From positions 1 through 29,362 of the IMG/VR virus record IMGVR_UViG_3300044637_000416: a stretch of DNA of 29,362 nucleotides, one strand, 5' to 3'. Of the stretch, positions 7,093 to 23,055 are shown in pieces (the first letter of the stretch is position 1; each line of letters starts with the position of its first letter). This DNA is from a virus. A program made the position numbers and the translations under genes. The notes under the pieces were generated by a model, which searched no databases, was not told the origin of the DNA, and saw only the letters and a program-made list of their open reading frames with translations.

Positions 7093-7292
7093 AACACGAA
7101 GCAAAAGTATTAAGCGAAGCGAATGAACTTACTCGGTTAATGATTAAAAATTACCTACAAAAACACGAATTAAGTTTAAACGCATTTTCAAAACAATCTG
7201 GAATAAGACAACCTAACTTGCACAAGTTTATGAAAGGACAAAATTTGTCCAGCAGTTCAATCGAAAAATTAGGAATGTTTTTTAGTAAATAA
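7089..7292 (+). CDS. XRE/Cro-type helix-turn-helix protein
   Basis: A 67-residue protein with a complete HTH_3 domain at about 17-65: MIKNYLQKHELSLNAFSKQSGIRQPNLHKFMKG and then SSSSIEKLGMFF. It is essentially one DNA-binding domain and should repress or activate by binding an operator. The last nine codons fall in a 24-bp sequence repeated at 7855-7878, so the 3' end of this gene is a junction. It ends the recombination operon. Confidence 0.75.
   Translation: MKHEAKVLSEANELTRLMIKNYLQKHELSLNAFSKQSGIRQPNLHKFMKGQNLSSSSIEKLGMFFSK
7269..7292 (+). repeat. 24-bp direct repeat, copy 1
   Basis: Identical to 7855-7878. This copy encodes the C-terminus (LGMFFSK) and stop of the XRE protein. The flanking base on each side differs between copies, so the identity is exactly 24 bp. 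The two copies bracket a 586-bp unit carrying a terminator and one gene. Confidence 0.9.
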
Positions 7293-7311
7293 CTGAGGTT
7301 CGGCAAAACCT

Positions 7312-7366
7312 ACCCCCTATTCAAATCAAAACCTGAGAAGTTAGTAAATACAGGTAGGGGGTTTTT
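7312..7366 (+). terminator. Terminator-like hairpin after the XRE gene
   Basis: ACCCCCTA (7312-7319) pairs perfectly with TAGGGGGT (7355-7362), followed by a five-T run. The 35-nt loop is long for a terminator, so efficiency is uncertain. A smaller competing hairpin (AGGTT with AACCT) overlaps the left arm at about 7296-7311. The alternative pairings could act as a switch. Confidence 0.45.
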
Positions 7367-7378
7367 AAAAAACTAAAT

Positions 7379-7858
7379 ATGGAAAATTACAATAAATTAA
7401 TTGGATTTACTAAATGGAAAATGTATAGGTTAACAGGGTCAAGTCAAGATCCGTTAGATGTATTACACTCAGCTTATTTAAGAAATGAAGATATTTACAA
7501 GGCAATAACAAATGAATGTTTTTTATTATTAAGAGAAAAATGGGCTCGGAATCAACATTTGTATGGGTTTAATCCACCTGAACAAAAACAATGCAATAAA
7601 TGCAAAGAAACACTCCCGATTTCACAATTTAGAATTTTTAAAGAATTAAAATATGATGTTCAACGTGTTCGGTATATTTGCAAACCATGCGAAAGTATAT
7701 ATAACAGAAAATATAATTATAGGCAAAAAGAATATAAAGCACGTGTTAAAGCTTTTGTTAATGGATTAGACGAAAAATTACGAAAAGCAATTGAAGAAAA
7801 ATATAATACAAAAGATGTAAGAAAAATATATTCAATATGCAAAAAATTTAAAAGTTAG
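7379..7858 (+). CDS. Sigma-region-2-like N-terminus plus Cys4 zinc ribbon protein
   Basis: A 159-residue protein not matching one familiar family. Residues 3-36 (NYNKLIGFTKWKMYRLTGSS, then DPLDVLHSAYL) line up by eye with the sigma-like protein at 8703. A zinc ribbon follows with C72, C75, C101 and C104, spaced as in the N-terminal ribbons of HNH and endonuclease-VII-like phage proteins. The remainder is a basic helical tail. No HNH catalytic residues are seen. It could be a regulator that binds RNA polymerase or DNA, or a decayed endonuclease. No promoter was seen, so read-through past the upstream hairpin is needed. Its stop codon lies in the second 24-bp repeat. Confidence 0.5.
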   Translation: MENYNKLIGFTKWKMYRLTGSSQDPLDVLHSAYLRNEDIYKAITNECFLLLREKWARNQHLYGFNPPEQKQCNKCKETLPISQFRIFKELKYDVQRVRYICKPCESIYNRKYNYRQKEYKARVKAFVNGLDEKLRKAIEEKYNTKDVRKIYSICKKFKS

Positions 7859-7878
7859 GAATGTTTTTTAGTAAATAA
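7855..7878 (+). repeat. 24-bp direct repeat, copy 2
   Basis: Identical to 7269-7292. Here it is noncoding apart from the stop codon of the zinc-ribbon gene (TAG at 7856-7858). It probably represents the ancestral 3' end of the XRE gene or a recombination scar. Confidence 0.9.
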
Positions 7879-7904
7879 TTTGGCTCTGGTAAACCAACAG
7901 AAAG

Positions 7905-7933
7905 ACGGAACGTAAAAAATTCCGTTTTTTTTT
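7905..7933 (+). terminator. Rho-independent terminator
   Basis: ACGGAA (7905-7910) and TTCCGT (7920-7925) form a perfect stem around a 9-nt loop, followed by nine Ts. It closes the recombination operon. Its T run touches the TTTG (-33) of the next promoter, so the end of one transcription unit and the start of the next are packed together. Confidence 0.8.
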
Positions 7934-7961
7934 GTTTGTGTTATTCTTTTTAGTATATTTG
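7931..7961 (+). promoter_or_regulatory. Promoter of the sigma/late operon, reversed A-box
   Basis: TTTG at 7931-7934 and TATATTTG at 7954-7961 with 19-nt spacing form an excellent Bacteroidetes promoter. The spacer holds ATTCTTTTTA (7943-7952), the reverse complement of the TAAAAAGAAT box found at the same place in the sister promoters. The leader includes AAACAATTAAAA and then an AACACGAA word three bases before the ATG at 7991. It is the only clear plus-strand promoter found upstream of the late genes. Confidence 0.75.
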
Positions 7962-8609: not shown

Positions 8610-8782
8610 ACGAGATAAACGCATCACAGGATGTTATAAAATACTCAAAGGTAAGTTTAAACAAGCTGAAGAAAATAAAAGAACTAAAAACCGGAAAAAA
8701 GGATGCTGAGTGTTTCTGTTCAAATGTTAGGAGGCGAGTTTGGTTTAAAGATTTCATGCAGTGGTTTGAAAGCAATTCTTGA
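8579..8782 (+). CDS. Small hypothetical protein
   Basis: A 67-residue product from ATG 8579. An in-frame ATG at 8543 lies deeper in the membrane-protein gene. It is acidic at the N-terminus and basic in the middle (KLKKIKELKTGKK), then AECFCSNVRRRVWFKDFMQWF, a Cys/Arg/Trp-rich end that looks conserved. It overlaps both neighbours in different frames, and the last 80 nt coincide with the annotated start of the sigma-like gene. No function is assigned. Confidence 0.55.
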   Translation: MFEQIELEQINEINASQDVIKYSKVSLNKLKKIKELKTGKKDAECFCSNVRRRVWFKDFMQWFESNS

Positions 8783-9296
8783 CAAATACATAAACACGAA
8801 TTATAGCGAGATTAGAAAATACACTAATTACTTTTTGGTGCGAATGAATAGCTTAATAGATGCCGATACAGTGATTAATAATTCCTATTTGTACTTAGTT
8901 AAGTTAAACCCAAAGTTAAACACGGAAAACGAAGTTAAAAGCTATCTATTGAACACTATTAAACAACAAGTGTTATGGAAAACATCACAAAGTAACGTTG
9001 ATGATAAAGTAACTGCTATCGAATATGAGCCAAATGAAACGAATGACGATTCTGACTTAATATATAAGATAGAGCAAGAACGTAAATATCAGTTACATAA
9101 GAGTTGCATTGAAATATACAGAAACACGATTCAAGATAGAATTAAGTTAATTATATTTGAGGCATACTACGACAAAGGATTCACAACTAATAGAGCAATG
9201 GGAAAGTATTTCAACCTACCGTTTACAACTTGCCACTATTGGATAAAAGAAATTAAAGAAGATTTGAAACGAATAAAACTTGAAAATGAAAATTAA
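8703..9296 (+). CDS. Sigma-factor-like transcription regulator
   Basis: A protein of up to 197 residues. About residues 25-95 resemble sigma region 2 (a helix YSEIRKYTNYFL, the acidic turn LIDADTVINNSYLYL, then ENEVKSYLLNTIKQQVLW). Residues 140-190 resemble region 4 (IKLIIFEAYYDKGFTTNRAMGKYFNLPFTT, then WIKEIKEDL), a helix-turn-helix. This is the two-domain plan of ECF-like sigma factors. It lies directly upstream of terminase and structural genes, fitting control of late transcription. The start is uncertain: ATGs at 8703 and 8724 both overlap the preceding gene by about 60-80 nt. Confidence 0.65.
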   Translation: MLSVSVQMLGGEFGLKISCSGLKAILDKYINTNYSEIRKYTNYFLVRMNSLIDADTVINNSYLYLVKLNPKLNTENEVKSYLLNTIKQQVLWKTSQSNVDDKVTAIEYEPNETNDDSDLIYKIEQERKYQLHKSCIEIYRNTIQDRIKLIIFEAYYDKGFTTNRAMGKYFNLPFTTCHYWIKEIKEDLKRIKLENEN

Positions 9297-20375: not shown

Positions 20376-20789
20376 ATGCCAGCAGCAGAATTCAGACTTA
20401 AATATAAAATAAGAAACAAGGCAGCACGTGTTCTTAAAAAAGTTATCAAAGAGGATGCTTTGATTGATACCGGTACTTTGTATGAATCAGTTAGGATAAA
20501 TGCTAAATTTACAACTGAGGGTAATTTAAGAATCGAAATACTGGCTGCGTATTACTTTGGGTTTCTAAATAATGGAACAATATCAATCGAACCTTATCAC
20601 TTAGTTAGGCAGTTTAATAATCGTTTAGAAAGTGAGGGTATTATTAGTGAAATGTATGCTGAGTATTTAGCTTTTTTAACACAAAAATATCCATTAGTTC
20701 AAGTGAGTGCAATGCTACGTAAAAAGCAAAACGTAATCTATGACTTTAATCCGTTATTTGGTGAGTTTTGGGCTGCATTGGAATACTAA
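20376..20789 (+). CDS. HK97 gp10-like neck / tail completion protein
   Basis: A 137-residue protein with a basic N-terminal helix (KYKIRNKAARVLKKVIKED), then the family's typical LIDTGTLYESVRI turn, strands (LRIEILAAYYFGFLNNGT) and C-terminal helices. This resembles HK97 gp10-type proteins at the head-tail interface. It starts in the shared TTTAATATAGGTATG context. Its stop overlaps the stop of the convergent minus-strand gene by 4 nt, so the two transcripts meet tail to tail. Confidence 0.6.
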   Translation: MPAAEFRLKYKIRNKAARVLKKVIKEDALIDTGTLYESVRINAKFTTEGNLRIEILAAYYFGFLNNGTISIEPYHLVRQFNNRLESEGIISEMYAEYLAFLTQKYPLVQVSAMLRKKQNVIYDFNPLFGEFWAALEY

Positions 20790-21526
20790 ATGTTTAATTC
20801 TTTTTTCATTCCTAAAAAGTTGAACACAAGAATTAAGGGTAATTCACAAACAGCATTAAACTTAGTTAAATCTTCTTGACAAAGCGACCATATAAGCTGC
20901 TCCCAAGCCCATTTCTTATGGCGTTTCTCGTCATCTATTGCTTTGCGTTCCTCAGCATCCAACTGTTCTGTTTCCTCATACTCATCCTCTTCTGTTTCAT
21001 CCATAAGATTTTGGTATTGGTCAATAATAGATTCTCTAAATTTCATATATTCCGGAAGTATTCCGTAAACGTGCGTAATAGGAAAATCAAGAAACCAATC
21101 TAAACGGTCATTTGAATTATAATTATAAGATTCGAGGGTATCATCGCCCCATTCATTAACACGAAACCGTCTATAAAGTATTGCAATAATGTTTGGTAGT
21201 TTCTTTACATAGTCATCTGAGAAATATGATTCCAAAGAAATGAACTCGCCAAGTGTTAACTTAGATAATGGCTTCAATTTAAACTTATCAAATTCTGAAA
21301 GATATTGTTTTGGTGGCTCCGAGTTTATAAACTTTATTTTGCTTATATATTCATCAAGTTCTTGGATTGTAATATCATCAAACTGTTCAGGATAAACATC
21401 TAATAAAGTACAAATCAAATCAATTTGATAGCTAAAAACACCGTCTGACTTTTCTAAGTTTCTAAGTTCAAGAAATTGTTCAATCGTTATTTGATTCCAC
21501 TTTGTCGGCAGCTTGTTTATTAGCAT
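20786..21526 (-). CDS. Putative tail assembly chaperone-like protein
   Basis: A 246-residue protein on the opposite strand to nearly everything else. It opens LPTKWNQITIEQFLELR and continues with LKPLSKLTLGEFISLE and a C-terminal helical part (KKWAWEQLIWSLCQEDLTKFNAVCELP) typical of a small family next to tape measure genes in Bacteroidetes phages. Residues 180-210 are very acidic (DETEEDEYEETEQLDAEE). A tail assembly chaperone is the likely role by position. The two minus genes overlap by 47 nt, and this one starts inside the other. Confidence 0.45.
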   Translation of the reverse strand: MLINKLPTKWNQITIEQFLELRNLEKSDGVFSYQIDLICTLLDVYPEQFDDITIQELDEYISKIKFINSEPPKQYLSEFDKFKLKPLSKLTLGEFISLESYFSDDYVKKLPNIIAILYRRFRVNEWGDDTLESYNYNSNDRLDWFLDFPITHVYGILPEYMKFRESIIDQYQNLMDETEEDEYEETEQLDAEERKAIDDEKRHKKWAWEQLIWSLCQEDLTKFNAVCELPLILVFNFLGMKKELNI

Positions 21527-22022
21527 GATTTGAAATTGTTTCTGTTACAAATGTTATATAAGGGATAGCAATTTCAGCGGGTTGCATTCTAAATAGTTTT
21601 GCTTTGTGTTTCAAGTGAGCATCGGCATAGTGTTCAGTATTGCTCAAATCAATACGTTTAAACATGATAGCGAGTATATCAGCAACGTTATGTTTATTTG
21701 TTTTGTTGATTAGCTTTTCAATTAGCTTTGTGTCTTTTACAGATAGTTTTAATTCAGCTTTGTAGGTATATCCGTCAATTTCAATTTCTCCGATTGGCTC
21801 TTTTTTTTCGTAATTGTCATTGTTAAATTCTCGGGTCTTTTCAACGAAATAATTAAAGTCATCCCATTCCTCTTCGTCTATTCCAACGACTTCAAAAACA
21901 CGAATATGTTTCTCTACATTGTCAAGTTCGGAATCGTTATGTATTGCAGAAATCTTTTCAAATTCCTCAACAGTAATTTCATTCATTTTATTGGCTATTT
22001 GCCTACCTAAAACTTCAATCAT
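21480..22022 (-). CDS. Hypothetical tail-module protein, minus strand
   Basis: A 180-residue product from the ATG at 22020-22022. An upstream in-frame ATG at 22071-22073 would add 17 residues but lies upstream of the promoter box. It opens IEVLGRQIANKMNEITVEEF and is acidic and helical (DEEEWDDFNYFVEKTREFN), with a short beta hairpin (GEIEIDGYTYKAELKLSV). It is the first gene of a two-gene minus-strand operon between neck and protease genes. In other siphoviruses this place holds the two tail assembly chaperones, so a chaperone role is possible. Confidence 0.5.
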   Translation of the reverse strand: MIEVLGRQIANKMNEITVEEFEKISAIHNDSELDNVEKHIRVFEVVGIDEEEWDDFNYFVEKTREFNNDNYEKKEPIGEIEIDGYTYKAELKLSVKDTKLIEKLINKTNKHNVADILAIMFKRIDLSNTEHYADAHLKHKAKLFRMQPAEIAIPYITFVTETISNHANKQAADKVESNND

Positions 22023-22038
22023 ATTTATAATTTTTGAA

Positions 22039-22046
22039 CAAATATA
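22039..22046 (-). promoter_or_regulatory. Minus-strand promoter for the inverted gene pair
   Basis: CAAATATA on the plus strand reads TATATTTG on the minus strand, a perfect Bacteroidetes -7 box. Transcription would start about 10 nt before the ATG at 22022. The -33 region is weak. The box sits in a 43-nt gap shared with the start context of the protease gene on the plus strand, so both strands use the same small control region. Confidence 0.6.
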
Positions 22047-22065
22047 AATAAAATTTAATATAGGC

Positions 22066-23055
22066 ATGACCAAAGACCTACCGGTTTATAAAATCACTAT
22101 TGATCCTGAGTATTCAGACGGTCAAGAATTAGGCATTGAACAAATCGCTTTTACTTCAAATCCGGCTATTAAAGTTAAGGGTATGGCATTCAACCATGAT
22201 GTAAAAATGTTATTTGCAGATGACGTAAAATACCGCGTAACAGCACCGGCAATGATTCCAATGGAGATATATAGACGGGATGATGAAACAGGCGAGTATT
22301 ACGTGCAATTTACAGCGGAAACAATAGAACAAATCCATGTTAAGTTTATGCAGGATTTAAAGAACCGCGATGTATTTAACTTAGAACATGACCAAGCTCA
22401 AACGGTTCCAGCTTTTATTCTTGAATCATGGATTGTAGACAATCCGGAATATGATAAAGCATTTACAACGTTTGGAATTGAAGTTCCAAAAGGGACATTG
22501 ATGTTAACTGCTCAAATTACTAACAAAGAATACTACAATGAGTTAGTTGGTAATGAACAAATTGGTTTTTCTATTGAGGGGTTTTTAGGTCTTAAATTAA
22601 GTAATCACTTAAAATTAAATAATATGAAGTTACCTGATGGCGAACATCTAATTGAAGGTAAAGTCTACGTTGTAAAAGGCGGAGAAATTATCGAGATTAA
22701 AGATGCACCGAAAGAAGAGGTTGCAATGGAAAGTGAATCAGTTGTCGAAGAGGAAGTAACAACCGAAACGGAACCAATTGATGAGCAACCAGCACCCGAA
22801 GAACTTGCAACAGAAGAAGTTGTAAAAGAAGAAAAAATGGCAGTGGACCCGGCAACGGATGCTGAAGCTGTTTTGGCTATCGTTACACCAATTCTTGAGG
22901 AGCAAGTAAACAATTTATTAAAAATTATCGCTGACTTAAAAACTCAAATCGAGGAAATGTTAGTGGAAAAATCCGAAGAGGAAATCGAACTTAAATCTGA
23001 GGTAAAAATGTCAATCGCTGAAAAGTTCAGTGCATTAAATAAACTAAGTAATTAA
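22066..23055 (+). CDS. Prohead protease (XkdF-like) fused to scaffold region
   Basis: A 329-residue protein. Residues 1-180 match the XkdF-type serine protease: NLEHDQAQTVPAFILESWIVD with H108 and S121, PKGTLMLTAQITN, then QIGFSIEGF with S169. Residues 205-270 are Glu/Val/Ala-rich and disordered, and 275-329 form a helix (ILEEQVNNLLKIIADLKTQIEEML), the form of an assembly scaffold. Internal ATGs at 22624, 22726 and 22837 could give separate scaffold products. It lies immediately before the capsid gene and starts in the shared TTTAATATAGGCATG context. Confidence 0.75.
   Translation: MTKDLPVYKITIDPEYSDGQELGIEQIAFTSNPAIKVKGMAFNHDVKMLFADDVKYRVTAPAMIPMEIYRRDDETGEYYVQFTAETIEQIHVKFMQDLKNRDVFNLEHDQAQTVPAFILESWIVDNPEYDKAFTTFGIEVPKGTLMLTAQITNKEYYNELVGNEQIGFSIEGFLGLKLSNHLKLNNMKLPDGEHLIEGKVYVVKGGEIIEIKDAPKEEVAMESESVVEEEVTTETEPIDEQPAPEELATEEVVKEEKMAVDPATDAEAVLAIVTPILEEQVNNLLKIIADLKTQIEEMLVEKSEEEIELKSEVKMSIAEKFSALNKLSN

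Follow-up and report, generated by a model that had tools for sequence, protein, structure and literature searches.

Genomic context of P0001

The window, i.e. the whole stretch of DNA analysed here, is an IMG/VR virus record of 29.4 kb (29,362 nucleotides) that carries terminase, portal, NinG and ERF genes. Within it, the gene P0001 lies immediately downstream of an XRE/Cro-type gene and just upstream of a Bacteroidetes-type promoter match, as the initial annotation had described (Table 1); the bare promoter pattern is expected to occur 3.2 times by chance, and this match is kept at the equivalent place in a near-isogenic contig (L017). The TTTG/TAnnTTTG promoter match, together with the phage and sigma relatives, points to Bacteroidetes as the probable hosts. 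The insert that contains P0001 is bracketed by a 49-nt direct repeat, whose two copies are 80% identical and of which the second is the probable scar of a cassette insertion or exchange. Scans for tRNAs and Rfam families found nothing.

Table 1. Features of the P0001 locus, with positions in the window.
Feature	Position	Strand	Remarks
XRE/Cro-type HTH gene	7089..7292	+	upstream neighbour of P0001
Direct repeat, copy 1	7259..7307	+	3' end of the XRE gene
Terminator-like hairpin	7311..7368	+	just 5' of the P0001 start codon; CTACCCCC.../...GGTAGGGGGTTTTT; fold z-score only -0.6
P0001	7379..7858	+	encodes 159 residues: helical N-terminal domain (about 1-62), zinc ribbon, basic helical tail
P0001, N-terminal domain	7379..7570	+	predicted helices 2-19, 24-35, 37-62
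P0001, Cys4 zinc ribbon	7580..7702	+	C72, C75, C101, C104; ribbon of the type at the N-terminus of endonuclease VII/HNH proteins; not followed by a nuclease motif
Direct repeat, copy 2	7845..7893	+	overlaps the P0001 stop codon
Bacteroidetes-type promoter match	7931..7961	+	TTTG-N-TATATTTG; for the gene that follows (7991); also seen in the empty site of L017
Sigma-like protein	8703..9296	+	TIGR02937 sigma70-ECF, E 0.0037, residues 26-190; comparison protein for P0001

In the three backbones that were compared closely (the window, L001, and L012-L016), no more than about 20 nt separate the start of P0001 from a terminator-like hairpin with a T-run, and the promoter region of the next gene lies downstream. 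The loop of the hairpin in the window is common to L001 and to relatives without P0001. As an RNA element specific to P0001 the hairpin is ruled out: it is the ordinary terminator-like hairpin of this slot, found in L123, L128, L131 and other contigs that lack the gene. The start of P0001 in the window follows it by about 15 nt, with no Bacteroidetes-type promoter recognised between the two (7311-7379), and read-through is the simplest guess at how P0001 is transcribed. Elsewhere in the window, two overlapping open reading frames of 246 and 197 residues (20786-22073) are the sole long ones on the minus strand, the rest being on the plus strand; the 246-residue one has no Pfam match at an E-value of 0.01.

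Distribution of P0001

Relatives of P0001 occur in ten other IMG/VR contigs, nearly over the whole length in eight of them (69-74% identity), the remaining two being cut by contig ends. None were found in GTDB genome contigs, INPHARED phages or plasmids, INPHARED yielding matches at the level of the ribbon only. More distant relatives were found in none of the scans (viral contigs, genomes, INPHARED, plasmids, and 50 contigs searched whole), and the family alignment is thus shallow (Neff of 1.1 in hhalign). P0001 is a small, strongly conserved, optional gene in a few phages that apparently infect Bacteroidetes.

The gene is absent from 45 of the 50 contigs searched whole, and at least 45 contigs carry both the XRE gene and a homologue of the 7991 gene with no P0001; 36 of these have a sigma factor of the type encoded at 8703 in the window and nine one of the ECF type. 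L017, whose sigma-like protein is 98% identical to that of the window, has the same genes without P0001, and at the corresponding site L013 differs from L108 and L109 by a clean insert of about 0.5 kb. In one carrier, L011, the gene occurs at another locus, ahead of a 782-residue open reading frame. Because of these empty sites, the flanking repeat, the clean insert and the second locus, P0001 is an exchangeable cargo gene: it is a facultative, horizontally exchanged accessory cassette downstream of the XRE gene.

Other sequences are seen in the same slot. In L131 (1503-2324), the stretch downstream of the XRE gene holds a gene of 273 residues, ParB-like by eye, inserted across the terminator-like hairpin from the P0001 position; the slot thus looks like a general cargo site. 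Two relatives without P0001, L104 (about 4124-4230) and L106 (about 3575-3680), have slot sequences that look tRNA-like by eye, with a GGGGGTTCGAGTCCTCCCC arm; neither contig yielded a tRNA call from ARAGORN, and L104 gave no Rfam match.

Selection and the zinc ribbon

The four cysteines are invariant in the aligned relatives, and the open reading frame, with its Cys4 motif and basic tail, is real, as first described. Its most conserved part is the N-terminal 64 residues: Nei-Gojobori dN/dS values are about 0.02-0.12 for the N-terminal domain in nearly all pairs, as compared to roughly 0.1-0.5 for the ribbon segment. Given this strong purifying selection, which is tightest on the N-terminal domain, P0001 is a functional gene, in which the N-terminal domain matters most; a decayed gene is ruled out by the dN/dS of that domain.

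The ribbon is the only part of P0001 with significant database matches, residues 61-147 matching PHROG families annotated as endonuclease VII, endonuclease or Lar-like, with E-values from 7e-8 to 3e-6. It shares with the N-terminal zinc ribbon of phage endonuclease VII/HNH proteins (PHROG 1035, 2340, 2633 and 2255; Lar-like 5558) the pattern C-x2-C ... LPxxxF ... C-x2-C followed by a basic helix; unlike these proteins, P0001 has no nuclease domain and adds a conserved helical N-terminal domain of about 60 residues. An HNH motif is absent from the aligned P0001 sequences, and Pfam gave no nuclease match at its cut-off. Other phages, the Bacteroides phage LoVEphage among them, have open reading frames made up of an endonuclease VII-type ribbon alone, so this ribbon is an ordinary phage module; going by the families it matches, it probably binds nucleic acid.

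The initial annotation had offered a decayed HNH/endonuclease VII-like protein as an alternative, and was borne out in the type of ribbon and contradicted in the decay. A related reading would derive P0001 from a free-standing homing nuclease (HNH/endonuclease VII), as a remnant or miniature that has lost the nuclease and goes on spreading. The ribbon type fits this, as do the empty sites and flanking direct repeat of the cassette and its different locus in L011; however, besides the missing HNH motif, all relatives are of nearly equal length with a nuclease in none, and decay would not make the N-terminal domain the most constrained part, so this origin is improbable.

Comparison of the N-terminal domain with sigma region 2

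The N-terminal helices had been likened to sigma region 2, with residues 3-36 aligned by eye to the sigma-like protein encoded at 8703. In a Smith-Waterman comparison, residues 3-34 are indeed placed on the region-2 segment of that protein, at a score marginally above chance (69 of 2000 shuffles were as good, p about 0.03); for the family consensus, 224 of 2000 shuffles scored as well. A search of NCBIfam with the N-terminal domain (E up to 10) returned as its sole match the ECF sigma factor SigJ (NF007214), with an E-value of 0.0084 for the window sequence. This profile is matched by three of the eight family members in the register of region 2.1-2.2: residues 16-45 of P0001 pair with profile positions 22-52. 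D27 coincides with the Asp that is conserved in ECF region 2.2. Among 30 composition-matched shuffles of the domain, none matched a sigma factor and nothing fell below an E-value of 0.096. When the domain was aligned by hhalign to region-2 profiles pooled from three groups of phage sigma factors, it ranked 11th of 272 among control segments, with a score about the same as those of known sigma groups against each other, and the register of D27 on the conserved Asp was picked unaided. AF2 models of the full protein and of the N-terminal domain alone both have the three helices, at low confidence (pLDDT of about 42-60 in the N-terminal domain); the top Foldseek match in the PDB is sigma H bound to RNA polymerase, at a non-significant E-value of 5.3, and of the 45 weak fold matches to the full model, five are to sigma chains in RNA polymerase complexes. 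All of the tests that lean towards sigma draw on this one short sequence and cannot be counted as independent.

Against the agreement in register between SigJ, hhalign and the pairwise test, which backs the region-2 assignment weakly, stand several negative results. The N-terminal domain has no match in Pfam or among PDB sequences, HMMs of phage sigma factors give no significant match to P0001, and neither does an ungapped PSSM, which is underpowered, as it also missed the link between the 8703 protein and the ECF group. BLASTP of P0001 against the 8703 protein did not recover the alignment of residues 3-36, and hhalign of the two families aligned an insignificant piece of 15 residues only. 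In comparison to ECF sigma factors (SigJ NF007214; TIGR02937), P0001 shows weak in-register similarity to region 2.1-2.2 over YRLTGSSQDPLDVLHSAYLR and likewise a low-confidence three-helix prediction; unlike them, it lacks region 4, has a shortened link before the third helix, and stays far below every family cut-off, including that of SigJ. As read from the sequences, helices 2 and 3 of P0001 are joined by a link about seven residues shorter than that of the third-type phage sigma, and P0001 has His at the position of the region 2.2 Gln. At the place of the region 4 HTH, P0001 has the ribbon and basic tail and no match to any HTH profile; the earlier statement that a ribbon replaces region 4 thus holds for the absence of region 4, the word "replaces" presupposing the homology. 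The resemblance of the N-terminal domain to sigma region 2, the part of a sigma factor that takes hold of RNA polymerase, is weak and suggestive, and we place the likelihood of homology just short of even.

The domain could also quite plausibly, at something under an even chance, be unrelated to sigma and bind some other conserved protein of the phage or its host, such as one in replication, recombination or counter-defence, P0001 being a DNA-binding accessory protein built on an endonuclease VII ribbon. Such a reading is favored by the ribbon alone having significant matches, by the sigma likeness falling below conventional significance in most tests, and by the location in a cargo slot, which fits accessory host-interaction genes; the sole NCBIfam match and the blind agreement in register point instead to sigma.

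Sigma factors carried alongside P0001

The left arms of these phages are similar, and each phage has one of three very different sigma-like proteins (window 8703-9296; L012:7085-7627; L011:5923-6441). Among the P0001 carriers with readable flanks, seven have the ECF type (in L012 matching TIGR02937 with an E-value of 9e-11) and one the third type (L011); the 8703 type is found together with P0001 in the window only. The 8703 and ECF types go with different terminases, suggesting swapped regulatory and packaging modules.

Region 2 without region 4 has a precedent in T4 gp55, a region-2-type late sigma whose regions 2.1-2.4 have been modelled on the β' coiled coil (PMC2988020). P0001, with its region-2-like domain, its lack of region 4 and its position near the start of the late genes, might be a late sigma factor of this kind; gp55, however, is the late promoter-recognition factor of its phage (PMC2988020), whereas most relatives, among them at least 45 close ones with an equivalent slot, lack P0001 and have their own sigma factors, and another full-length sigma is encoded in every carrier contig that extends far enough. 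A gp55-like role is therefore very unlikely. The initial annotation had proposed a sigma decoy, an anti-sigma or a transcription-linked regulator. A decoy or anti-sigma dedicated to the 8703 protein would fit the window, where the two genes are 0.8 kb apart, but it is made highly improbable by the other sigma types of the relatives: no related contig examined carries both genes, and the 36 contigs with an 8703-type sigma and an intact slot lack P0001. With at least 45 slot-intact relatives that do without it and carriers that span three sigma types, P0001 is neither the late sigma of the lineage nor a partner dedicated to a single sigma.

Proposed role of P0001

The best explanation, which we put forward tentatively, at somewhat less than an even chance, is that P0001 is an accessory modulator that binds RNA polymerase or DNA, i.e. 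a non-enzymatic, nucleic-acid-binding regulator that is horizontally exchanged. Its N-terminal helices would be sigma region 2 in shortened form, comprising 2.1-2.2 and a 2.3-like helix, which would dock on the β' clamp helices of the host RNA polymerase; the ribbon and basic tail would then hold nucleic acid, and P0001 would compete with or modulate sigma-dependent initiation, rather than direct it, because it has no region 4. A conserved partner for the N-terminal domain fits the strong constraint on this domain. The more specific proposal of a mobile, optional mimic of sigma region 2, with an endonuclease VII-type ribbon for region 4, that moves as an RNA polymerase modulator between phages with different sigma systems, is more doubtful, at well below even likelihood.

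If the N-terminal domain is such a mimic, P0001 would represent an unusually small architecture to redirect or block host RNA polymerase, one that travels as exchangeable cargo and does not depend on the sigma factor of the phage itself. If it is not, P0001 would simply add to the accessory DNA-binding proteins that are built on the common endonuclease VII ribbon. In both cases, P0001 marks an accessory-gene slot, formed by the XRE gene, the terminator and the promoter, in which these phages swap cargo.
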